From the NCBI RefSeq assembly GCF_003003995.1, contig NZ_PVWF01000051.1:1-37806 (forward strand): 37,806 bases of DNA, in the 5' to 3' direction. Origin of the DNA: Pleurocapsa sp. CCALA 161 (GTDB lineage Bacteria > Cyanobacteriota > Cyanobacteriia > Cyanobacteriales > Xenococcaceae). Positions 25,086 through 36,623 of this stretch are shown here, piece after piece; position 1 is the first letter of the stretch, and each line of letters opens with the position of its first letter. The translations under genes and the position numbers were made by a program. The notes under the pieces are model-generated. The model searched no databases, was not told the DNA's origin, and saw only the letters and a list, made by a program, of their open reading frames with translations.

Positions 25086-25117
25086 CTCATAAGTTCCTCA
25101 AATCTTAGCCTTAATCT
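25086..25117 (+). promoter_or_regulatory. Island box 1 and -10 upstream of NDH-2
   Basis: CTCATAAGTTCCTCAAA at 25086-25102, with CTCA words 11 bp apart, is followed after 9 nt by TAATCT at 25112 as possible -10 (an alternative TATAAC lies at 25118). The NDH-2 start is 44 nt past the box. Identical over 17 bp to the box at 29585. Confidence 0.7.
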
Positions 25118-25146
25118 TATAACAAAAGAAGTTATTTGGAAAAACA

Positions 25147-26409
25147 ATGAATAATTCAACCACTCCTACTGTCATCGTCGGCGGAGGCTTTGTCGGACTC
25201 TTTACTGCTCTATATCTCAGCCATCACAACTACCCCGATCCCATAATTCTCATTGATTCTACAGAACGCTTTGTTTTTAAACCCTTATTATATGAATACC
25301 TATCTGGGGAAATGTATGACAAACAGGTTTTACCTCAATACAAGGAATTATTGAAAGGTACTGAGGTAGCTTTTGTACAGGGTGAGGTAACGGGTATCGA
25401 TCTAGAACAGCGTCAGGTAGAATTAGCATCTGGTTTGTCCTACAACTATCGCTATTTGGTTTTGGGGGTAGGTAGTAGTCAGGGCTATTTCGGTACAAAA
25501 GGAGCAAAAGAAAACGCTTTTTCTTTCCGCACTGGAGCAGATACGGTAAAACTAGAACGGCATATTAGACAATGTTTACAACAGGCCAGCCAAACTGAAT
25601 CTCAAGCAGAACGCAGCAAATTATTAACCTTCGCCGTAGTAGGAGCAGGTCATTCAGGAATTGAAATGGCAGCGACTTTAGCCGATCTACTACCACATTG
25701 GTATGGCAGTTTGGGTGGTAATGTTGAAGATCTTCGCATTGTGTTAATGGATTTCGTTACAGAAATTTTGGCAAAAGATGATACACATCTTCGAGAAACT
25801 GTCCAGTCAGCTTTGAAAAACCGCACTATTCCTGTGGAATTACTTTTAGGGGCAAAAGTTGCAGCAGTAGATTCAGACTCTGTGCAATATCAATTAGTAG
25901 ATCGAGACGAAACTGAAACGCTATCGACCAAAACCGCAATTTGGACTGCTGGCATAGCTAACAATCCTCTAATTGAATCTCTGACGCAGATAAAGGATGA
26001 AAGCAAAAATGAGCATGGTTCTCCTCTGGTGACTTCCACTTTGCAATTAGTCGATTTTCCCGAAGTGTTTGCAGCAGGAGACTGTGCGACAGTTAAAGAC
26101 CATTCCTTACCCCCAGTGGCGCAAATTGCCTATCAACAAGGAAAGGGAATTGCTGATAATCTGATTGCTTTATCTAAAAATAAAGGAACGCATTCGGTTG
26201 ACGCAAATATGCGAGGAACTTTAATCAAATTGGGACTGAACGACGCAGTTGCCAATTTATTTGACAAAATATTAGTCCAAGGAAGACCGGGAAATCTAAT
26301 TCGTAATCAGACTTACTTAAACATGCTGCCGACTCCTATGCATAACTTTAAAGCAAGTTCAGAGTGGCTTACTGACGAAATCTTCAATCGTTACCATTCA
26401 TCAAGGTAA
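25147..26409 (+). CDS. Type-2 NADH dehydrogenase-like FAD oxidoreductase
   Basis: This 420-residue flavoprotein has the two-Rossmann plan of NDH-2: FAD-binding VGGGFVG at 11-17, a second dinucleotide site GAGHSG at 166-171 for NAD(P)H, and the FAD-contacting AAGDCAT near 310. NDH-2 enzymes pass electrons from NAD(P)H to the quinone pool without pumping protons, at the membrane surface. Cyanobacterial homologues (Ndb proteins) are considered redox-balancing or redox-sensing. Length is normal and the gene looks intact. It begins 44 nt after the first island box, so it should belong to the proposed regulon, together with lactate dehydrogenase and the flavoproteins downstream. Confidence 0.88.
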   Translation: MNNSTTPTVIVGGGFVGLFTALYLSHHNYPDPIILIDSTERFVFKPLLYEYLSGEMYDKQVLPQYKELLKGTEVAFVQGEVTGIDLEQRQVELASGLSYNYRYLVLGVGSSQGYFGTKGAKENAFSFRTGADTVKLERHIRQCLQQASQTESQAERSKLLTFAVVGAGHSGIEMAATLADLLPHWYGSLGGNVEDLRIVLMDFVTEILAKDDTHLRETVQSALKNRTIPVELLLGAKVAAVDSDSVQYQLVDRDETETLSTKTAIWTAGIANNPLIESLTQIKDESKNEHGSPLVTSTLQLVDFPEVFAAGDCATVKDHSLPPVAQIAYQQGKGIADNLIALSKNKGTHSVDANMRGTLIKLGLNDAVANLFDKILVQGRPGNLIRNQTYLNMLPTPMHNFKASSEWLTDEIFNRYHSSR

Positions 26410-26507
26410 ATTTTAAAACCGCATTGTGCAAGAAGCAGATCGCCTGCGAAGAAATCTCAAATATCAATCTTGAGTAAGATAAAAATAAATTACCTGATTT
26501 TGGTTCG

Positions 26508-29042
26508 ATGACATTTGACAAATTAATAATCTTAGATCTTGATGAAACATTAATCCATGCAGCAGAAAAGCCCCTAGAGCAAGTCCAGGATTTTGTTGTC
26601 GGACCATATTTTGTATACTTACGTCCTCATGCTCGTTCATTTATCGATTTCTGCTTTGCATCTTTTTCTGCGGTAGCCGTTTGGACATCTTCCTCAAAAG
26701 ACTATGCTGAAGAGATAAGTTTAAATTTATTTGGCAGCAAAAAAGAAGATTTAGCGTTTCTCTGGTCACAAGAGCGATGTGTCCGTAAATTCGATTACAA
26801 ACGCTACGCCTCATATTGGATCAAAGATTTGAAGAAGGTGAAAAGACATGGATACACATTAGAAAAGATAATTGCGATCGATGATTCGCCTGAGAAACTT
26901 TATCGACAGTATGGAAATTTAGTGCGTGTTTTGCCATTTGAAGGATTAGTTTCAGATAATGAGCTATTGCATTTGCAGCAATATCTAACCGTATTAGCTG
27001 AAGCTGATAATGTACGCCAGATTGAGAAGCGCGGATGGCAGTCAAAGATAAACGCCACCAAAATAGAACAAAATTACCAGTATGTAAAAGAACGTTTTGA
27101 AACTTTAATCGCCAATGTTCCTGGAGCAATATACCGTTGTGCTAACGATGCTGATTGGACGATGGAGTTCTTAAGTGATGAAATTACGACGATCTCAGGT
27201 TATCGGGCTGCCGATTTTATTCATAATCAAAGTCGGTCTATAAGAAGCATTATTTACCCAGAAGATCGCGATCGCGTTGTTCGAGAAGTCCGTGAGGCGA
27301 TCGCCATTCGTCAACCCTATACAATTGAGTATCGAATTATTCGCTCAGATGGATCGAATGCCTGGATTAAGGACAAAGGACAAGGAGTCTTTGACGGTGA
27401 TGGCAAACTTCTTTGGTTAGACGGAATTATTTTAGATATTACCGAACGCAAGTGGACAGAGGGCTTACAGCAGATTCAAAATAGGACTTTGAAGATGATA
27501 GCTAGAGGAGAGACTCTAAAAGATACTTTATCAGAACTGATTGAGCAAGTCGACCGCTTATCTCCAGGTCTAAATTCAACCATTACGATCGTGCAGGAGG
27601 ATGGTCAACATTTACGATCTTTTGTCAGTTCTCAATTGCCCCAAGATTATCTTAGCGCGATCGATTATTTACCCATTGAGGCAAAAGTTGGTTCTTGCGG
27701 GACGGCTGCTTATTCAGGTCAGCGAGTAATCGTAAGTAATATTGCTACCGATCCTTCTTGGACGGGCTATAAACATCTAATTTTGCCTCACGGTTTTCAA
27801 GCCTGTTGTTCCGAACCGATTAAATCCGATACGGGTAAAGTTCTAGGAACTCTTAATCTGTATTTTACCGAACCGCGATCGCCTTTACCTAAAGAGTTAG
27901 AGATAATGGAAGCTTGTGCTAATTTAGCCTCTATTGCTATTACTCGCCAACAATTTGAAGCTACATTGCAGCATAGCGAATCACAGCTACCTTTGATTAC
28001 AGATGCACTACCAGCATTAATTTCTTATGTCGATTGCCACCAGTACTATCAATTTGTCAATAAGACTTATGAAGATTGGCACAAAAAACCCCGTACTGAA
28101 ATTATTGGCAGCCATCTTCGAGAGATTCTAGGCGAGGCAAATTACCAGCAAATTAAACAGTATGTAGAATTAGCCTTGTCAGGGCAGACAGTAAGCTATG
28201 AAAATGAAATCAGATCGAGCGATTGCTTCTCACGTTGGGTTAATGTTACTTATATTCCCGATTTTAACCGAGAAGGATTTGTCAAAGGATTTTTTGGTTT
28301 AATTAGCGATATAAGCGATCGCAAAGCTACCGAACAAATGAAAGACGAATTTGTCTCGGTGGTTAGTCATGAATTGCGCACCCCTCTAACCTCTATATAT
28401 GGCGCTTTAAAATTGATTGTAACCAACCCTCAAAGTGGATTATCCCAAGAAGACCGCGAAATGCTAAACATTGCCGTAACTAATACAAATCGCTTAGTGC
28501 GTCTGGTAAACGATATACTTGACCTAGAGCGCATTGAGTCAGGCAAAGTAAAAATGGTGAAACAGCCCTGTGAGGCTGCCGATTTAGTTCACGAAGCGAT
28601 CGAAGTCATGCAGCCAATGGCAAAAGTTGAAAATATCACTTTGGTAGCAAAACCTGTTTCTCTGACCATTAATGTCGATCGCGATCATATCCAGCAAACC
28701 CTAACCAATTTACTCAGCAATGCGATCAAATTTTCGACCCCTAATAGTTCGGTTCAGGTTACAGTCGAAGACTTAGAATGCGAGGTTTTATTTAAAGTTA
28801 TCGATACAGGGCGCGGGATTCCCGCAGATATACTAGGCAGTATTTTTGAGCGATTTAAACAGGTGGATGCTTCCGACTCGCGAGATAAAGGAGGTACTGG
28901 CTTGGGGTTGCCCATCTGTTACAAAATTATTGAAGAACACGGAGGTCGCATCTGGGCTGATAGTGAGTTTGGGAAGGGAAGCACGTTTTATTTTACTTTG
29001 CCTAAATCTAACTTAAAATCGTCAGAGGAACTGCCCCTATGA
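26508..29042 (+). CDS. HAD (FCP1/NIF-type) phosphatase fused to PAS-GAF-PAS sensor histidine kinase
   Basis: The 844-residue protein joins two normally separate proteins. Residues 1-180 are a complete NIF/FCP1-type HAD phosphatase: nucleophile pair D10/D12 (LDLDETL), motif II T60 (VWTSS), a lysine near 107-110, and acidic pair D125/D126 (IDDSPEK). It ends in VRQIEKRGW, close to where stand-alone members end. A PAS domain (about 190-315), a GAF domain (about 320-480) and a second PAS (about 485-605) follow. The kinase has H621 in SHELRTPL, N-box LLSNAIKF, and boxes DTGRGIP and GGTGLGLPI. No membrane helix is seen, so it is cytosolic. Its stop overlaps the start of the receiver gene by 4 nt, which points to a cognate pair. 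Confidence 0.93.
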   Translation: MTFDKLIILDLDETLIHAAEKPLEQVQDFVVGPYFVYLRPHARSFIDFCFASFSAVAVWTSSSKDYAEEISLNLFGSKKEDLAFLWSQERCVRKFDYKRYASYWIKDLKKVKRHGYTLEKIIAIDDSPEKLYRQYGNLVRVLPFEGLVSDNELLHLQQYLTVLAEADNVRQIEKRGWQSKINATKIEQNYQYVKERFETLIANVPGAIYRCANDADWTMEFLSDEITTISGYRAADFIHNQSRSIRSIIYPEDRDRVVREVREAIAIRQPYTIEYRIIRSDGSNAWIKDKGQGVFDGDGKLLWLDGIILDITERKWTEGLQQIQNRTLKMIARGETLKDTLSELIEQVDRLSPGLNSTITIVQEDGQHLRSFVSSQLPQDYLSAIDYLPIEAKVGSCGTAAYSGQRVIVSNIATDPSWTGYKHLILPHGFQACCSEPIKSDTGKVLGTLNLYFTEPRSPLPKELEIMEACANLASIAITRQQFEATLQHSESQLPLITDALPALISYVDCHQYYQFVNKTYEDWHKKPRTEIIGSHLREILGEANYQQIKQYVELALSGQTVSYENEIRSSDCFSRWVNVTYIPDFNREGFVKGFFGLISDISDRKATEQMKDEFVSVVSHELRTPLTSIYGALKLIVTNPQSGLSQEDREMLNIAVTNTNRLVRLVNDILDLERIESGKVKMVKQPCEAADLVHEAIEVMQPMAKVENITLVAKPVSLTINVDRDHIQQTLTNLLSNAIKFSTPNSSVQVTVEDLECEVLFKVIDTGRGIPADILGSIFERFKQVDASDSRDKGGTGLGLPICYKIIEEHGGRIWADSEFGKGSTFYFTLPKSNLKSSEELPL

Positions 29043-29410
29043 CTGTAAAACGCATTTTGCTTGTAGATGACGAAGCTTCTATCTTAGCAGTGGCTCGTAT
29101 TGGTTTAAAACGAGAAGGGTGGTCAGTGTTGACCGCAGCTTCAGGACAAGAGTGTATCGCTAAAGCGGTAGCCGAACAGCCAGATGCGATCGTAATGGAT
29201 GTGATGATGCCCGAAATGGATGGACTAGCAACTCTCAAGCAGCTACAAGATAATCCTCAAATTAAACATATTCCCGTGATTTTTTTGACTGCTAAAGCTC
29301 AGAAAACAGATCGCCGTCGCTTTTATGCCTCTGGTATTAAAGGATTTATTACTAAGCCTTTCGACCCTACTACTTTAGCAAGTCAAATTTCAGGCTTTGT
29401 AGGTTGGTAG
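29039..29410 (+). CDS. Single-domain response regulator, partner of the HAD-kinase
   Basis: A 123-residue receiver with D10/D11, phospho-acceptor D54 (IVMDVMMPEMDG), the switch threonine in FLTAK and the conserved lysine in ITKPF. It has no output domain. The ATGA overlap with the kinase gene indicates coupled translation. Because it cannot bind DNA itself, it must pass the signal to another protein, either by a relay or by direct contact. The HAD phosphatase part of the kinase could in principle act on the aspartyl-phosphate, but that is speculation. Confidence 0.93.
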   Translation: MTVKRILLVDDEASILAVARIGLKREGWSVLTAASGQECIAKAVAEQPDAIVMDVMMPEMDGLATLKQLQDNPQIKHIPVIFLTAKAQKTDRRRFYASGIKGFITKPFDPTTLASQISGFVGW

Positions 29411-29687
29411 ATACTGGTAAAAGATTTTCCTATTTTAATTAGATATGATTTCAGCCGAGTCAGTTGCAATTTGCTTCGATTCTTTTGAACTTATTTAGAA
29501 GCATTGGTGATATTGAGCAGGCAAATATTCAGCCTCGTCATGTGGAATTTCTCCAGCAGTCAAATATCGCCCCTGTAGATTATCCTCATAAGTTCCTCAA
29601 ATCAATTTTTTATAACAGAATCAACCTCAAACAAATATTCGCCTTATAGATGTGAAGAGGTACAAGTTTAACGAGGAACTAAGATTT
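29411..29687. other. Intergenic stretch with an island promoter
   Basis: No convincing gene is found. A plus-strand reading at 29464-29649 (for example SIGDIEQANIQPRHVEFLQQ) may be a decayed coding remnant, but I do not recognise it. The stretch holds island box 2 at 29585-29601, which should start a transcript towards lactate dehydrogenase. Confidence 0.4.
29585..29616 (+). promoter_or_regulatory. Island box 2 and -10 upstream of the ldh region
   Basis: CTCATAAGTTCCTCAAA at 29585-29601, followed after 9 nt by TATAAC at 29611-29616. Identical in 17 bp to box 1. The first good start codon downstream is the 29688 small frame; the lactate dehydrogenase start lies 494 nt downstream. Confidence 0.7.
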
Positions 29688-29792
29688 ATGGTAACAACAG
29701 TCAGATATCGATCGCCAGGGTGCAATTGGTCAAAGAGCGCAACCCAACAACGCTTTCACCTGCGATTAGTAGAACCTGGAGCGACGCTGTAG
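29688..29792 (+). CDS. Possible 34-residue small ORF after island box 2
   Basis: A GAGGA site 10 nt before the ATG introduces a 34-residue basic product (start MVTTVRYRSPGC). It follows the proposed promoter by about 70 nt and may be a leader peptide, a remnant or a real small gene. No family is recognised. Confidence 0.25.
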   Translation: MVTTVRYRSPGCNWSKSATQQRFHLRLVEPGATL

Positions 29793-29890
29793 GGCGTGAC
29801 AATGTAGTCGCAATTTATCGCATTGAGCCTAGTGAGATAACTGGAAATCAAACATCAGAGTAACTTTATTACTAAATAAGAGATTGATAA

Positions 29891-30055
29891 ATGATCGATA
29901 AAATACTCGTAGCAGTAGACCATTGCGAAAAAAATCAATTCGTCTTCGACTCAGCAATATTTTCAGCCAACCGTTCGGTATTAATCGTGCGTACTGCTAT
30001 GGATAACGATTTTGAGCCAGTATCTTTTGAGCAAGAAAATAAAGCAGATAGCTAG
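29891..30055 (+). pseudogene. Truncated universal stress protein (UspA-type)
   Basis: The 54-residue frame begins MIDKILVAVDHCEKNQFVFD SA, the hallmark N-terminus of universal stress proteins (first beta strand with the ATP-contacting VAVD). Family members have about 140-150 residues with a G-x2-G-x9-G(S/T) motif near the end; that part is missing and the sequence diverges after FSAN. It is a broken gene, although a complete relative would fit well in this stress-type island. It ends 40 nt before the lactate dehydrogenase ATG. Confidence 0.7.
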
Positions 30056-30095
30056 TAAAAAATTAATCTCGCTCGATAATCAAAACCAATTAATT

Positions 30096-31091
30096 ATGTT
30101 TGAAAAAATCTTTGATATCAATACTGAAGCCGAGCAAACCAATCTTCTTTCTCTCCGTAAAGGAGTCATTATTGGTGCAGGACAAGTAGGATTAGCCTGC
30201 GCCTACTCTTTACTGATTCAAAACTGCTTCGATGAATTAGTTTTACAGGATATCAATACCAAAAAGATTGAAGGAGAAGTGATGGATTTGCTCCACGGAA
30301 TGTCTTTTATCGCTCCTACAGAACTTGTTGCGGGAACGGTAGCCGACGCGGGAAAGGATGCGGACATAGTAATTATCACCGCAGGTGCAGCACAAAAACC
30401 AGGAGAAACTCGCCTTGATTTACTAGGGCGTAATGTTGCTATCTATCAAAACCTGCTTGATGATGTAGCCAAGTATTGTCCCCATGCCATCCTGTTAATT
30501 GTCACTAATCCCGTAGATATTATGACCTATGTGGCACTAAAAATGTCTGGGTTTCCCAGTTCTAGGGTTATTGGTACGGGAACAGTACTGGATACGTCTC
30601 GATTTCGTTCTTTGCTAGCCCACAAATTAAACATTGATGCTCGAAGCGTTCAAGCTTATATCATTGGCGAACACGGAGATAGCGAAGTTCCCGTGTGGAG
30701 TACGGCTAATGTGGCTGGACGAAAATTGCTCTCGCAAGACTGGGAAAATCTTGATTCAGCAGAGCGAGAGTACTTCACGGCTATTTTTAGTCAAGTTAAA
30801 AATGTAGGTTATGAAATTATTCAGCGTAAAGGATATACCTCCTATGCGATTGGTTTAGCAGTGACCGATATAGTCGAAGCAATTATACGCTCTCAAAAAC
30901 GCATTCTTACTGTTAGTGGTCTTGTTGATGGACTATATGGTATCAAAGATGTCTGTTTGGGGTTGCCTAGAGTAATCAATGAGAAAGGCTTTTATAAAAC
31001 TGTCAATTTAGATTTGAGTCCCAGAGAAGAAAAACAGCTTCGTCATTCGGCTAATGTTCTACAAGATGTTTTTGCCCGACTCAAACTTTAA
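30096..31091 (+). CDS. ldh: L-lactate dehydrogenase (NAD-dependent)
   Basis: The enzyme interconverts pyruvate and L-lactate with NADH and serves as an electron sink in fermentation. From the ATG at 30096 it has 331 residues, normal for LDH, with NAD-binding GAGQVG at 27-32, the substrate loop AAQKPGETRLDL, and the catalytic His in IGEHGDSEVPVW. A Gln in the loop (AAQ) is the LDH-specific residue; malate dehydrogenases have Arg. The frame continues upstream to a TTG at 30012, which would overlap the Usp fragment and add 28 unrelated residues, so I prefer the ATG. Many cyanobacteria lack this gene or ferment by other routes, so its link with NDH-2 and the flavoproteins is informative. Confidence 0.93.
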   Translation: MFEKIFDINTEAEQTNLLSLRKGVIIGAGQVGLACAYSLLIQNCFDELVLQDINTKKIEGEVMDLLHGMSFIAPTELVAGTVADAGKDADIVIITAGAAQKPGETRLDLLGRNVAIYQNLLDDVAKYCPHAILLIVTNPVDIMTYVALKMSGFPSSRVIGTGTVLDTSRFRSLLAHKLNIDARSVQAYIIGEHGDSEVPVWSTANVAGRKLLSQDWENLDSAEREYFTAIFSQVKNVGYEIIQRKGYTSYAIGLAVTDIVEAIIRSQKRILTVSGLVDGLYGIKDVCLGLPRVINEKGFYKTVNLDLSPREEKQLRHSANVLQDVFARLKL

Positions 31092-31114
31092 TCTTTACAG
31101 TAAGGCAAAAATCG

Positions 31115-31148
31115 GGTTGAGAGACATTTGTACAAAAAGCTCTCAACC
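31115..31148. terminator. Bidirectional hairpin between ldh and the nitroreductase gene
   Basis: GGTTGAGAG (31115-31123) pairs perfectly with CTCTCAACC (31140-31148) across a 16-nt loop. It lies between two convergent genes. The sequence after it on the plus strand has a T6 run about 10 nt on, and on the minus strand a short run of T, so it may end both transcripts. Confidence 0.6.
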
Positions 31149-31204
31149 GCAAATTGATTTTTTGACTCATTTCTTTTGCTGTAAAACCCCTATGATGTTT
31201 ACCT

Positions 31205-32197
31205 TCAGCGACTTGTCTTTTCGCTAACTTCATCTCTGCTTCTTCTAGCAGTTGGTTTGGTGTCTTGGGCATAACCTAAACGAAGCAGAATTTGAGGATG
31301 ACCATTTTCAGGAAATAGAGCTTTTAAGCGCGATCGCAATTGAGGGACTTGAATTGGTTGATTGAGGAAAGATGCCCAAACACCATCAACTCTAGCTCTC
31401 AAGAGTAAATGTGCTAGAGCTTCTCCTGTAGCTAGCCAACTATGAGGGCGATCGCCATCGCTACTAATCAACATCAAAACAGGAGCAGGTATCGGTAGCT
31501 GACAATTTTGGGCTGACTCTGAATCTATCCATTGAGCTAATTCTCGACCAAACAAAGGGTCTGTCGTTTGCAGGCGATCGCCTAGATCGATTAAATTAAT
31601 TACTTCTGGACAAAAAGCTTGGGGTATAACTTTAGCTGTAATATGCAGGTTAATACATTCTGCATCAGCAGCCGATTCTAGTTCCAATTTTAAGGATTTT
31701 GGAATCTGACAATCTTTAAAGTCAAGCGGGTTAATATCAAGTCTGGGAATTGCTCGAAACAAAAACTTTTCTTCAAGTTGGGTAATTCTTCTACTCCCAA
31801 AGCGGATTCTTGCCAGCCAACTGCGATTATGACGCTCTGGAAGAATTTCTACTAGATCTTTATAGCCAAAATAACGTATGGCAAGGCGAAGATGAAATAA
31901 AGCTGCGCCACAGCTAATAATGGGTTCTCGATAATCGGGGTTGGCTACGGGCAAGGCACGAGTTGTATCTGCATATAGTTCAATAGCATCATCAACTATT
32001 TTGAATAGCCCAGGCGGAATATTATGAATTGATGGGGCTAAGACTGCATAGTTGAGTAAAAATTTGAGTTTATCTGTAGTTGTACCATCAAAAGGAAAAT
32101 CATCTTCTTTAATTTCCCAGGGATTTAAGACGAATTCTGGCTCTTGATTTGTTGAGTCTAGTTTGATTGTGGGAAAAACATCTAAAAGATTAATCAC
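31205..32197 (-). CDS. Acg-like nitroreductase-family FMN protein
   Basis: The product (330 aa from a GTG at 32197 that has GAGG 8-12 nt upstream; a TTG lies 30 nt further up) resembles the long Acg-type branch of the nitroreductase family, with two fused nitroreductase-like halves. The N-terminal half has LLNYAVLAPSIHN, and the C-terminal half has SWLATGEALAHLLLRARVDG followed by LLRLGYAQ. Mycobacterial Acg (Rv2032) belongs to the hypoxia-induced DosR regulon and binds FMN without reductase activity. Here the usual TQPW after HN reads IPPG, so substrate or FMN contact may be changed. It lies 65 nt (by this start) after the dihydroorotate-dehydrogenase-like gene in one probable operon. Confidence 0.8.
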   Translation of the reverse strand: MINLLDVFPTIKLDSTNQEPEFVLNPWEIKEDDFPFDGTTTDKLKFLLNYAVLAPSIHNIPPGLFKIVDDAIELYADTTRALPVANPDYREPIISCGAALFHLRLAIRYFGYKDLVEILPERHNRSWLARIRFGSRRITQLEEKFLFRAIPRLDINPLDFKDCQIPKSLKLELESAADAECINLHITAKVIPQAFCPEVINLIDLGDRLQTTDPLFGRELAQWIDSESAQNCQLPIPAPVLMLISSDGDRPHSWLATGEALAHLLLRARVDGVWASFLNQPIQVPQLRSRLKALFPENGHPQILLRLGYAQDTKPTARRSRDEVSEKTSR

Positions 32198-32262
32198 GAT
32201 TGCTACCTCAAGATTAAGTATTGTCAAAAATTGTCAGAATTTGGCTTGTTGAAGGCAGACAT

Positions 32263-33282
32263 TTATTTGGCATAATTCCTAACATACGTTCCGTCAACCA
32301 TTTTCCAATAGGGTTGATAGGTTTGTAGAGCTTTGAGATATTGCGCTCGTTCAAAAACACTAGGATCGGGACAATTTATTTGGCTTAAGCTGCCTTGTAA
32401 CTGAGCAATTGATTCGTATTTGTTAACCTCCAACCATTCAATCATGTCTTTTTCAATTATTCGTAGCTGTTCGATACCATGACTCATTAGTGTGCTAACT
32501 AACATGGTGACATTAGCACCTACCAGCATCATTTTGATGACATCTTGAGCGGTAAGAATCCCGCCTGTAGCAGCAAAATCGATGGGAAGAGTGCGATACA
32601 AAATAGCGATCCAGCGCATCGGTAAACGCATCTCTCTAGAAGTGCTAAGAAGCAAATTGGACTCTACTTTTAGAGTTTCTAGATTGATATCGGGTTGGTA
32701 AAAACGATTGAATAATACTAAACTATTGGCACCAGCATCACTTAGTCTTTTCGCCATATTTGCCATATTGCTAAAGAAAGGACTCAGTTTGACTGCTACA
32801 GGTAGATTAACAGCGTCTGTAACGCTGCGAACAATATCTACATAAGTTTGTTCTACTTGCTCGCCACTCATTGACAGATCTGTAGGAATGTCATAAATGT
32901 TTAATTCCAACCCATCGGCACCTGCTTGCTCTACCTGCCGTACATAATCACCCCAGCTACCTACTGTAGAACTGTTGAGACTAGCAAAGATGGGAATATC
33001 CACCATCTTTTTAGCACGACGAATACGCTCTAGATAGGCTTCTGAATCGACAGGAAAATCTGATTCGGGATAACTTTCTGTAGGGTGAGCGAATTGATGA
33101 TATGCTTCGTATCGTTCTTCTAGTAGTTGTTCTTCAAACAAAGAATGCAATACTACTGCTCCTGCGCCAGCATCTTCCATCCGTTTAATATTATCGATAT
33201 TTTCGGTTAGAGGTGCTGCTGCACCAACCACCAAAGGCGATCGCAATGTCTTACCTAGATAAGTTGTGGATAAATCTACCAT
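32263..33282 (-). CDS. Dihydroorotate dehydrogenase-like flavoprotein
   Basis: The 339-residue protein is a TIM-barrel FMN oxidoreductase of the DHOD/PreA type: LRSPLVVGAAAPLTENIDNI at the start, IFASLNSSTVGSW, GLELNIYD, VAVKLSPFF and the phosphate-binding ATGGI near 235. It is not a normal PyrD, since the loop after NIYDIP lacks the typical catalytic surroundings. Relatives annotated as dihydroorotate-dehydrogenase-like occur near pyruvate:ferredoxin oxidoreductase genes in cyanobacteria, suggesting a fermentation or redox role. A very good GAGGAGG site precedes the ATG. A box of the island type lies 41 nt upstream. The nitroreductase gene follows downstream. Confidence 0.88.
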   Translation of the reverse strand: MVDLSTTYLGKTLRSPLVVGAAAPLTENIDNIKRMEDAGAGAVVLHSLFEEQLLEERYEAYHQFAHPTESYPESDFPVDSEAYLERIRRAKKMVDIPIFASLNSSTVGSWGDYVRQVEQAGADGLELNIYDIPTDLSMSGEQVEQTYVDIVRSVTDAVNLPVAVKLSPFFSNMANMAKRLSDAGANSLVLFNRFYQPDINLETLKVESNLLLSTSREMRLPMRWIAILYRTLPIDFAATGGILTAQDVIKMMLVGANVTMLVSTLMSHGIEQLRIIEKDMIEWLEVNKYESIAQLQGSLSQINCPDPSVFERAQYLKALQTYQPYWKMVDGTYVRNYAK

Positions 33283-33307
33283 TTATTTTCCTCCTCAATC
33301 TGTCTTT

Positions 33308-33339
33308 AAATTAAGAAAATGTTTTGAGGAAGTTATGAG
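33308..33339 (-). promoter_or_regulatory. Island box 3 and -10 upstream of the DHOD-like operon
   Basis: On the minus strand CTCATAACTTCCTCAAA occupies 33339-33323, and after 9 nt TAATTT (33313-33308) is a possible -10. It differs from boxes 1 and 2 at one base (C for G at position 8). The ATG of the DHOD-like gene is 41 nt past the box. Confidence 0.7.
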
Positions 33340-33429
33340 TAATAGGATTTAATTTAATTTAATTATCCTTACTGAATTAATAGACACAACAGTAACATCA
33401 TAAGTATCTAGAACGAGCAGCTTGCTCAC

Positions 33430-33461
33430 CTCATAAGTAGCTCATATTTCTAAATTAATAT
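33430..33461 (+). promoter_or_regulatory. Island box 4 and -10 upstream of the degenerate receiver
   Basis: CTCATAAGTAGCTCATA at 33430-33446 keeps the CTCA words 11 bp apart and the CTCATAAGT half, and after 9 nt TAATAT (33456-33461) is a possible -10. It is the most divergent copy. The receiver ATG lies 54 nt past the box. Confidence 0.6.
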
Positions 33462-33500
33462 ATTGTTTTAAACCAAGCGCTTGTTAGGAATAGATTATTA

Positions 33501-33881
33501 ATGCTACAGCTAGATCGCAAATATATTCTGGTTATTGAAGTTGCTAAAGATATTCGCGAAATTATTAAACGCAGCTTGGGACACATGGCAAATTGGCAAG
33601 TGTTTTCAGTAAACACAATCGCTGAAGGATTGACTTTAATTCAAACACAGCAACCCAATGTAATTTTACTCGAAGCTGACTTATTAGACCACAGCGATTG
33701 CCATATTTGGCAACAGCTACAAACTACTGCTTCTGAGCAGTCTATTCCCCTAATCTTTATGGCAGCGAGAATTAGATCCATGGATCGACTTCGATTTGAG
33801 GAACTTGGTGCTGTATCGGCGATCGCCAAACCTTTTGAGCCACAAGAATTGGTAGAGGCGATCGCTCAACTATTAAAGTAA
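33501..33881 (+). CDS. Degenerate receiver (pseudo-receiver) protein
   Basis: The 126-residue protein has the CheY fold pattern, but key residues are changed. The phospho-acceptor Asp is replaced by Glu (E58 in VILLEADLLD), the N-terminal acidic pair is reduced to E13 next to Val, and the switch Thr/Ser is Ala (A88 in FMAAR). The lysine is kept (K110 in AKPF). A Glu at the acceptor site often mimics the phosphorylated state, so the protein may be locked active. No output domain is present. It has its own island box, lies divergent from the DHOD-like operon, and is 83 nt upstream of the phosphoribosyltransferase gene. Confidence 0.88.
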   Translation: MLQLDRKYILVIEVAKDIREIIKRSLGHMANWQVFSVNTIAEGLTLIQTQQPNVILLEADLLDHSDCHIWQQLQTTASEQSIPLIFMAARIRSMDRLRFEELGAVSAIAKPFEPQELVEAIAQLLK

Positions 33882-33903
33882 TTTTGGTTACACATCATCA
33901 CGA

Positions 33904-33935
33904 CTCATAACTTCCTCAAAACTGCCAACTATAGT
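33904..33935 (+). promoter_or_regulatory. Island box 5 and -10 upstream of the phosphoribosyltransferase-ftsH operon
   Basis: CTCATAACTTCCTCAAA at 33904-33920, followed after 9 nt by TATAGT at 33930-33935. Identical to box 3. The ATG at 33965 is 44 nt past the box, the same distance as for NDH-2. Confidence 0.7.
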
Positions 33936-33964
33936 GGGAATTAATCTTGAGATTGGTAAAAATC

Positions 33965-34651
33965 ATGAAACCAGTTTTTTCTAATAGACGAGAAGCAGGA
34001 AAAAAATTAGCCCAAAAACTTACCGCCTATGCTAATCATCCTCAAGCAATAGTATTGGGACTACCTCGTGGTGGCGTACCTGTGGCTTATGAGATTGCCA
34101 AAACTTTAAATCTTCCCTTGGATGTTTGTTTGGTCAAAAAATTAGGACTACCTAACAATCCAGAAACAGCGATGGGTGCAGTTGTCGAAGATGAACTGTT
34201 GCCTGACTACTGTGGCAACATTACTATAATTAATCAAAACACGACACAAATTCACGGAGTCAATTCAGAACAGCTAAGAGCGATCGCTGCTCAAGCAAAA
34301 GTCGAATTAAGATGGCGCGATCGCTGTTATCGAAGCTTTCGTCCCCTGCTAAAAATTTCGCAGCATATTGTTATTATCGTTGATGATGGTATTGCTACGG
34401 GTCAAACTATGGAGGCTGCGGTAACTGTTTTGCGACGGCATAAGCCAAAGAAAATTATCATTGCTACTCCCGTAGCATCAAAGTCAGCTATAGAACAATT
34501 AGCAACTCAGGTAGACGACTTTATCTGTTTAATAAAACCAAAATATTTAGGTGCAGTGGATTTTTGCTATGAGGATTTTACTCAAACAACAGATCGAGAA
34601 GTGTGCGATTTACTTTCTCAAATGTCTTACAAGACTTTAGTAACGTCTTAG
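33965..34651 (+). CDS. Phosphoribosyltransferase-family protein
   Basis: The product (228 aa from the ATG at 33965; a TTG lies 18 nt further up) is a type-I phosphoribosyltransferase fold protein: [15 protein letters not shown] at the start, [14 protein letters not shown], and the PRPP loop [13 protein letters not shown] near 133-145. It belongs to the stand-alone group annotated as predicted phosphoribosyltransferases, whose substrate is not known. A similar domain occurs in mycobacterial Rv0571c, a member of the hypoxia-induced DosR regulon. It lies 31 nt upstream of ftsH and the two are surely one operon, headed by an island box. Confidence 0.88.
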
Positions 34652-34682: not shown

Positions 34683-36623
34683 ATGTTTCAACACCAGAAT
34701 CCCAATCAAACATCACCATCGAATCAATGGCAATTGACTTTGATTTTAAGCGCGCTCTGCTTGATTTTATTTAGTTTATTCCTGACTCCATCATCAGCTA
34801 AGTCTCAATCCTACAGTAAGTTTATCAACTTAGTAGAGAGCGATCGCGTCGAGCAGGTAACTATTAGCCCCAATCGTCTTGAATATACTCTCAAATCAGA
34901 AGGATTTGCCGACAACTCGGAGCAGGTTTTTACTACAGTTCCAGTGACTCAAGATACAGAGTTACCGAAGATTTTGCGTCAACATCAAGTAGAATTTTCC
35001 GCAACACCTGCTAATAATGACACTTGGTTTTGGGGTTTTGTACAAGTATTATTTTTCCTCTTTTTGTTGGTCAATTTGGGCGGTCTGTTAATTGCTCGCC
35101 GTCAACAAGGCGGAGCAAGTCCTTTTGCTGTTGGTCGCAGCAACGCTCGTATTTACTCCGAAGGCAGTCTGGATGTTACCTTTGATGATGTAGCGGGAGT
35201 CGATGAAGCTAAGACAGAACTTTATGAAATTGTCGATTTTTTGCAAAACAAGACTAAATACGCTCTTTTAGGAGCAAAAATACCTAAAGGTGTATTGTTA
35301 GTAGGACCTCCAGGCACAGGCAAAACTTTATTGGCAAAAGCGATCGCAGGAGAAGCTGGTGTTCCTTTCTTCAGTATTTCTGGCTCGGAATTTATCGAAA
35401 TGTTTGTCGGCGTTGGTGCATCGCGGGTGCGGGATTTATTCGAGCGCGCTAAAAAACAAGCCCCAGCAATAGTCTTTATCGACGAACTAGATGCCTTGGG
35501 TAAGTCTCGCGCCTCTGGTGGAGCTTTTATGGGCGGTAACGACGAACGAGAACAGACACTCAACCAGCTACTGGCAGAAATGGACGGGTTTGAACCCAAC
35601 ACAGGAGTAATTCTGCTGGCTGCTACTAACCGTCCCGAAGTTCTCGACCCTGCTTTATTGCGTCCTGGTCGTTTTGACCGTCAGATTTTGGTCGATCGCC
35701 CTGACAAGTCGGGAAGACTAGCGATATTAGAAGTTCACGCTAGAAATGTTAGTTTAGCCGAAGACGTGGATTTAGATAAATTAGCTGCTCGTACTCCTGG
35801 TTTTGCAGGGGCAGATTTGGCAAACCTGATTAACGAAGCTGCGCTGCTTGCTGCTCGAAATAATCGCTATGCGGTAACTATGGCAGATTTTAACGAAGCC
35901 TCTGAGAGAATCTTGACAGGATTGGAAAAAAGATCTCGGGTACTCAACGAAACTGAAAAGAAAACTGTGGCACATCATGAAGTCGGTCATGCGATCGTGG
36001 GGTCGTTGATGCCTGGAACGGATAGAGTCGAGAAGATATCCATTGTTCCTCGTGGTATTGGTGCATTGGGCTATACCCTCCATCTACCAGAAGAAGATCG
36101 TTTCCTAATGATGGAAGACGAAATTCGCGGTCGTATTGCCACTTTATTAGGAGGACGTGCTGCTGAAGAATTAATCTTTGGCAAAGTATCTACGGGCGCT
36201 AGCGACGATATTCAAAAAGCTACTGAGCTTGCTGAAAGATACATAACTCTCTATGGTATGAGCGATCGCCTGGGTCCCATTGCTTTTGAAAAAGTACAGC
36301 AGCAGTTTCTAGATGGTATGACTAATCCTCGTCGTCAGGTTAGCCCCAAAGTTGCCGAAGAAATCGACCTGGAAGTCAAAGCAGTAATTGATGGTGCATA
36401 TCAGACCGCTAAGACTACTCTTTTAGAAAACCGCGAACTATTGACCGCGTTAGCTCAAATTCTCTTAAAGCAAGAAGTTTTAGAAGGAGAACAACTGCGA
36501 TCGCATCTGGGTCAAGCTCAAAGAAACGATCTGGTAGATAAATGGTTGCAAACAGGAAAGTTAGCCCAAAATAATTTACTCGCTCCTGCTTTATCTCATA
36601 ACGGAAAAGCCTTAAAGAGGTGA
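34683..36623 (+). CDS. ftsH: ATP-dependent zinc metalloprotease FtsH
   Basis: FtsH is a membrane-bound hexameric AAA+ protease that degrades damaged membrane proteins and some regulators. The 646-residue product has two N-terminal membrane helices (about 18-35 and 114-138) around a periplasmic or lumenal domain, Walker A GPPGTGKT at 208-215, Walker B IVFIDE at 263-268, the second region of homology with [20 protein letters not shown], and the zinc site H432-E433-x-x-H436, with the third ligand in GASDDI. The zinc motif reads HEVGH where most FtsH proteins have HEAGH, and Walker B is followed by LDALG rather than IDAVG, so it looks like a divergent accessory paralogue. It is co-transcribed with the phosphoribosyltransferase and the next small gene. 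Confidence 0.95.

Follow-up and report, generated by a model that had tools for sequence, protein, structure and literature searches.

A tandem-repeat promoter box before fermentation, hydrogen and stress genes in cyanobacteria, and its candidate OmpR/PhoB-type regulator

Judged from sequence, a short box that recurs in a 37,806-nucleotide stretch of Pleurocapsa DNA (the window) is a promoter element that many cyanobacteria have in front of fermentation, hydrogen and stress genes. Very probably, the genes so marked are switched on by one regulator family when oxygen runs out. We consider it likely that the box serves as operator in a low-oxygen and dark-fermentation regulon of cyanobacteria, which an OmpR/PhoB-type regulator of the domain order REC-wHTH-HPt-REC-REC would bind and activate. 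The targets suggest low oxygen as the signal, and physical binding, activation (as opposed to repression) and the order of the phosphorelay are presumed. With somewhat less confidence, we favour a picture in which cyanobacteria outside the usual models share an ancient two-component anaerobic master regulon (fermentation, hydrogen, alternative photosystem II and stress genes behind a 22-bp box), with a private version, under an extra helix-shifted regulator, on a moving island in Pleurocapsa-type cyanobacteria. An earlier note on this DNA had proposed a five-site regulon under a class II activator; the spread of the box beyond the window's relatives, the regulator and the mobile island are additions to that reading.

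Box sites and genes in the window

The window is contig C168 of the own genome (G000; 5.37 Mb in 249 contigs). Searching it at up to three mismatches returned exactly the five intergenic sites that the earlier note had named. Four are exact: box 1 (25086-25102, plus strand), box 2 (29585-29601, plus), box 3 (33323-33339, minus) and box 5 (33904-33920, plus). Box 4 (33430-33446, plus) is weak, with three mismatches. Dinucleotide-preserving shuffles of the window (n=100) contained on average 0.34 sites and at most 2, and five sites were reached in 0 of 100. All five sites carry the proposed pair of CTCA words 11 bp apart, and each is followed after exactly 9 nt by the -10-like hexamer described for it: TAATCT (25112-25117, plus) for box 1, TATAAC (29611-29616, plus) for box 2, TAATTT (33308-33313, minus) for box 3, TAATAT (33456-33461, plus) for box 4 and TATAGT (33930-33935, plus) for box 5. 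The orientation of the boxes matches that of their genes, as had been read. A distance of 41-54 nt to a start codon had been given for four sites; the four sites stand, but the range is 40-54 nt, with gaps of 44 nt (start at 25147), 40 nt (33282, minus), 54 nt (33501) and 44 nt (ATG at 33965).

Box 1 precedes a Pyr_redox_2 oxidoreductase gene, NDH-2-like and its presumed target (25147-26409, plus; no NCBIfam match above cut-off). Starting 98 nt past this gene, and likewise behind box 1, are the genes of a histidine kinase (26508-29042, plus), the candidate sensor, and of a CheY-like single receiver identified by domain search (29039-29410, plus), the candidate relay protein. The kinase combines NIF-type phosphatase, PAS, GAF, PAS, HisKA and HATPase domains. 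Its residues 5-170 form the N-terminal NIF-type (HAD-like) phosphatase domain; by eye, its relatives in G010 and G011 (ORFs of 672 and 658 aa) start at the PAS part.

Box 2 had been assigned to the lactate dehydrogenase region. The box is present, but the closest gene is not intact: a universal stress protein (USP) gene remnant with an internal deletion (29891-30055, plus) precedes the L-lactate dehydrogenase gene, a candidate target (30096-31091, plus; ATG at 30096). The remnant consists of two gene ends with 87% and 68% identity to the ends of a G010 protein. Note that the USP gene has decayed, yet the box ahead of it is still exact. A PEP synthase remnant in the same interval was considered and dropped, tblastn giving no convincing match.

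Box 3 is upstream of two predicted targets, a dihydroorotate dehydrogenase-like protein (32263-33282, minus; NF005741) and an Acg/Rv3131-family FMN oxidoreductase (31205-32227, minus; NF047509). Box 5 lies before predicted target genes for a phosphoribosyltransferase-domain protein (33947-34651, plus, ATG at 33965; assigned by Pfam, all NCBIfam matches being below cut-off) and, behind it, an FtsH-type protease (34683-36623, plus). Box 4 lies upstream of a degenerate receiver gene (33501-33881, plus) and is the least secure of the five, because the corresponding receiver gene of G010 has no upstream box at up to two mismatches.

Box anatomy and spread

For the anatomy of the box we used 132 distinct sites found without a -10 condition; close island relatives were kept and identical 70-mers removed. 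With its flanks, the box is a near-perfect tandem 11-bp repeat with the site consensus TTCCTCAYAAS-TTCCTCAAATT. The upstream flank beyond the half-sites is close to random. Three of the 132 sites fall inside ORFs of at least 150 aa. Of the remaining 129 intergenic sites, 89% have TA at exactly +9 and 64% have TANNNT there; TA at any other offset from 0 to 24 reaches at most 28%. Four of 125 sites in the named loci, which were selected for TA and are counted among the matches listed, are inside ORFs of that length. The box thus has the layout of an OmpR/PhoB-type operator, with tandem half-sites about 11 bp apart that replace the -35 element at a fixed spacing to the -10. A chance or dispersed-repeat origin is rejected by the shuffles, the reversed-pattern control described below and the -10 spacing.

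In the own genome, 11 exact and 6 one-mismatch boxes were found on contigs C65, C168, C87, C133, C118 and C5. At up to one mismatch this makes 17 sites versus 0 for the reversed pattern; at up to three mismatches there were 74 versus 43 for the pattern read backwards. Within the window's family, 23 of 27 genomes have the box at up to one mismatch (120 sites versus 3 for the control). The sites cluster: 14 lie at 59-142 kb of G010 contig C32, 12 at 165-216 kb of G011 contig C4, and 10 of the 11 sites of G014 at 251-291 kb of its contig C19.

The class-wide scan found the box in 98 of 388 genomes and 68 of 159 genera (244 sites). The reversed pattern gave 29 sites in ~27 of the 388 genomes, so some single box matches are due to chance. 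Beyond the window's family, the matches listed mostly read CTCACAA in place of the window's CTCATAA. Note that the genome patterns were built on CTCATAA, so that CTCACAA sites had one mismatch less to spare, and in the family and 388-genome scans were counted only without any further mismatch; T-type sites are therefore favoured everywhere, and C-type genome counts may be too low, the family contrast given below included. Scanning a collection of 84,980 species for boxes that have TA at +9 returned at least 112 stretches; among the matches listed, 110 of 112 were cyanobacterial by title, with one from Acidobacteria and one from SAR86. The earlier note had named placement of the box at random or coding positions as an outcome that would speak against it. 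The genome scans instead found intergenic sites with a fixed -10 spacing, and the expected fermentation and stress targets, together with hydrogen genes, lie behind boxes in other families as well as in the own genome. Boxes were also seen on plasmids of Nostoc carneum NIES-2107 and Calothrix sp. NIES-4101 (L169, L177, L186).

Target genes and the presumed signal

By NCBIfam and Pfam, the genes behind boxes encode pyruvate:ferredoxin oxidoreductase (PFOR), pyruvate formate-lyase (PFL) and its activase, AdhE, HoxE, PEP synthase, phosphofructokinase, PEP carboxykinase and a hydrogenase maturation protease. Also behind boxes are a NuoF/HoxF-like protein (below the NuoF cut-off), an acetate-CoA ligase (alpha domain just below cut-off), NiFe large-subunit-like and sulfhydrogenase-beta-like proteins (both below cut-off) and PsbA (just below cut-off). 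Further targets are Acg/Rv3131, Lon, P-type ATPase, USP, Hsp20 and ComFB proteins; ComFB, GerMN, zinc-ribbon and HlyD proteins are among many targets without an evident tie to anoxia. At the limit used, four of 30 scanned target proteins matched no family and others gave weak matches.

All of the following counts are among the matches listed. Taking the first two genes at 125 sites, 32 sites have anaerobic or hydrogen genes, 31 have stress or D1 genes and 62 have either; at 10 of the 125 the locus lacks any ORF within 1.5 kb. One link, between locus L166 and the PFL-activase cluster, seemed spurious from its sequence and does not enter the union counts, though it is kept in the PFL-activase row (3). 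By first gene, 29 of 115 targets belong to anaerobic metabolism, the rest being stress-related or unassigned. Anaerobic families make up 26 of 98 first genes versus 25 of 455 other ORFs of the named loci, and stress families 29 of 98 versus 17 of 455, in categories that were chosen post hoc, after the data had been seen.

In the own genome, boxes precede genes for phosphoketolase, a cation ATPase, a plastocyanin-like protein, Rieske PetC, PsbO/MSP, Hsp20, a rubredoxin-like-domain protein, Fer2 and a sugar transporter. Some of these look like second-set photosynthesis parts, namely the PsbO/MSP protein (L036:9213-10088) and the Rieske PetC and plastocyanin-like proteins (L033:7319-7858 and L033:9018-9407). 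For ten target families the box was found in at least three of five genomes, two-mismatch sites with a fitting -10 included; gene order around the boxes varies between these genomes despite the common target families. The three psbA copies that follow boxes in Nostocales share A80 and L158 and, by eye, an Ala in the 286 region (WF-A motif), which we take to be the D1-prime pattern; the G011 copy has A80 but F158.

It is possible, though we think it rather doubtful, that the regulon is real but answers to general stress or desiccation, its fermentation genes serving survival metabolism. No single target class is more frequent than USP (17 of 125 sites among the matches listed, with Hsp20 at 4 of 125), FtsH and Lon are targets too, and many genera that host the box are known from terrestrial mats. 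Against a stress signal, PFOR, PFL with its activase, AdhE and Hox are anaerobic-type enzymes and oxygen-sensitive. The box-linked Nostocales psbA copies with D1-prime-like residues point the same way, expression of D1-prime (G3) being described under low oxygen in the available part of PMC12096807.

The mycobacterial DosR dormancy regulon offers a likeness in target kinds: DosR targets include USPs, Acg/Rv3131, alpha-crystallin, a cation ATPase and a phosphoribosyltransferase domain, and similar kinds lie behind the cyanobacterial boxes. DosR, however, is a NarL/LuxR-type protein with a palindromic (inverted-repeat) box, whereas the cyanobacterial box is tandem and its candidate regulator OmpR-type. 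By analogy, the box regulon may work like the DosR regulon without being a member of that class.

Within cyanobacteria, the targets overlap with those of hox and nifJ control in Synechocystis, where microoxic induction is described under SigE, cyAbrB2, LexA and possibly Rre34 (PMC11368403) and a 2026 review has cyAbrB2 and SigE acting on hox and nifJ (PMC13421787); the available parts of both sources do not mention the box. The same review, in the part available, describes ChlR, which resembles the proposed system in oxygen-responsive activation but is a MarR-type low-oxygen activator of one tetrapyrrole operon with a palindromic TTMCC-N3/4-GGWAA motif, compared with an OmpR-type candidate, a tandem repeat and many targets here (PMC13421787). 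Since the available parts of this Synechocystis and ChlR work do not mention the box, its system is best called a distinct member of the OmpR/PhoB kind that would act like an anaerobic or dormancy regulon. As far as these parts go, known control of fermentation and hydrogen metabolism comes from Synechocystis and involves several global factors, with no dedicated regulator with a box of its own being named (PMC11368403, PMC13421787). One box and one candidate regulator make the question directly testable in Nostoc- or Calothrix-type strains, with targets predicted gene by gene, and would provide handles for hydrogen and fermentation engineering.

Searches of the non-subscription cyanobacterial literature for CTCATAA, CTCACAA and TTCCTCAAA brought up no recognisable box paper among the matches listed. 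In the parts available, one occurrence of a box word belongs to predicted FurC boxes, another pattern (PMC10406281), and one is a primer (PMC6985446). LoiP gave no literature match among the matches listed. Sheridan et al. 2020, on D1 diversity, reportedly describes a low-oxygen photosynthesis gene cluster, so part of the island discussed below could already be described.

Candidate regulator and its island copy

The likely regulator of the box is, from its domains and genomic company, an OmpR/PhoB-type protein with the architecture REC-wHTH-HPt-REC-REC and the recognition helix AVRTHIK. The islands of G010, G011 and G014 encode a protein of 622-623 aa, and the G010 copy contains Response_reg, Trans_reg_C and Hpt domains, thus a receiver together with a Trans_reg_C winged helix. 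In six box-near relatives from elsewhere, Trans_reg_C and Hpt occur together with three Response_reg stretches, and GGDEF or PAS/GAF extensions are present in four of the six. In the own genome, one regulator gene on contig C87 adjoins a box and runs off the contig end, which cuts away its first 101 residues; in relatives, this region is part of a single island that holds many targets. Some box-adjacent regulators (L139, L127, L277) carry GGDEF at the C terminus and could couple DNA binding to cyclic-di-GMP synthesis.

PhoB is among the proteins with the nearest solved DNA-binding domains. PhoB binds tandem half-sites 11 bp apart that replace the -35 at a fixed distance from the -10, and its dimer contacts RNA polymerase. 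The box shares the tandem 11-bp half-sites in place of the -35 and the fixed -10 gap, and the candidate the OmpR-type winged helix; box and targets are different, and the candidate carries an HPt and further receivers. On this model, a phosphorylated regulator dimer would bind the two half-sites head to tail over the -35, contact RNA polymerase and, by class II activation, recruit it to the -10 that follows after 9 nt. Likely candidates for sensor and relay are the HisKA kinase and the CheY receiver encoded behind box 1; together with the HPt and additional receivers of the regulator they would make up a relay that regulates itself. A similar set (kinase, CheY and multi-receiver OmpR-type protein) is found in the RfpA/B/C phosphorelay of FaRLiP, which controls a photosynthesis-related far-red light cluster.

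We examined 70 regulator homologue loci, 30 top matches and 40 picked from genomes with and without boxes. The box occurs at up to one mismatch in 17 of them, eight times upstream and divergent within 715 bp; in seven loci a divergent box is 110-372 bp from the regulator start. A profile was built from 14 DNA-binding domains, of which 13 belong to box-adjacent homologues and the last to a sister copy; its matches, and those of a paralogue profile, were compared with box counts over the same 388 genomes. At a threshold that was one of three tried, and in counts that ignore shared ancestry, the box was present in 63 of 87 profile-positive genomes versus 35 of 301 negative ones; without the 13 contributing genomes it was 53 of 74 versus 35 of 301, kinship again being ignored. 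The paralogue profile, its threshold set for similar positives (84 versus 87), was associated less strongly (43 of 84 positive versus 55 of 304 negative genomes). By profile class, the box was found in 27 of 37 genomes with the regulator only, 7 of 34 with the paralogue only, 36 of 50 with both and 28 of 267 with neither. Of the 32 genomes with at least three boxes, 29 are regulator-profile-positive. No box was found in 24 of the 87 positive genomes, and nine genomes with at least two boxes fall below the threshold, two of which (G188, G375) have AVRTHIK copies.

AVRTHIK was rejected as a sharp marker, as it separates box-near from other homologues only modestly (13 of 17 versus 24 of 54, P=0.02). 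For this reason weight was put on the co-occurrence, on the helix in named loci and on the island copy with its co-variation. Among the matches listed, all five OmpR-type domains in the 112 named box loci (two profiles, E 1e-10) read AVRTHIK; these loci come from a different collection than the profile sequences, though the same species are possible.

In the window's family, a regulator match at E 1e-44 is present in 25 of 27 genomes. G000, G010, G011, G014 and G018 have a regulator copy among the boxes, besides the core copy; the same five, and no others, have 11-17 boxes, against 0-5 in the remaining 22. A second match in G007 and G012 (226 and 789 aa) is of another type, and these genomes have only 4 boxes and 1 box. 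All five island copies have PTEGAVRTHIKT at the helix, with T after the helix lysine, whereas 24 of 24 other copies read have G (23 HIKG, one HVKG); a G005 locus did not match the search expression and four further matches were left unread. At box position 5, T is found in 68 of 71 sites from the five island genomes versus 18 T, 30 C and 1 other in the remaining family genomes, a contrast counted with the T-favouring pattern. Thus, in the sequences compared, the helix (KT versus KG) shifts in step with the box (CTCATAA versus CTCACAA), although the island copies may represent one or two events. The extra regulator would be a natural case of a joint change of operator and recognition helix. Together with the 11-bp tandem repeat over the -35 region and the co-localised and co-occurring OmpR-family regulators, this co-variation supports the OmpR/PhoB-type reading of the earlier note.

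These data also bear on whether another protein, a Crp/FNR-type or stand-alone OmpR regulator, binds the box, with the multi-receiver proteins as mere neighbours, which we consider unlikely. A Crp-family gene does lie behind an own-genome box (L034), and a stand-alone 232-aa OmpR-type protein starts 835 nt past a box (L193). The latter, however, has the same AVRTHIK helix, and the co-variation and the island-copy match follow the multi-receiver protein. Crp/FNR operators are inverted repeats; the box consensus is tandem and not palindromic, and an operator of that type was rejected on this ground. Very unlikely, too, is a repressor site or sigma-factor promoter mark: the box does overlap the promoter, but two half-sites at a fixed 9-nt gap to TANNNT fit PhoB-type activation, and a sigma element is shorter than the 22-bp repeat. 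That the boxes are a functionless dispersed repeat copied with the island is hardly credible, close as island copies in several genomes are to one another, since outside the island family boxes precede unrelated genes with the same -10 spacing and the flank past the half-sites is near random.

The island of the candidate regulator appears to be mobile. Between G000 and G014, RpoB identity is 99.1% and median island identity 87.0%; the values are 91.0% and 89.6% for G000-G011, and 96.5% and 60.4% for G000-G018. Because the two measures disagree, the island probably moved between lineages. By eye, integrase- and transposase-like ORFs lie in or near the G010 and G011 islands. An insertion-sequence-like ORF pair (282 and 103 aa) occurs three times on G010 contig C32, at ~86.2, 108.4 and 128.0 kb, and the copy at ~128 kb seems to split a dehydrogenase gene.
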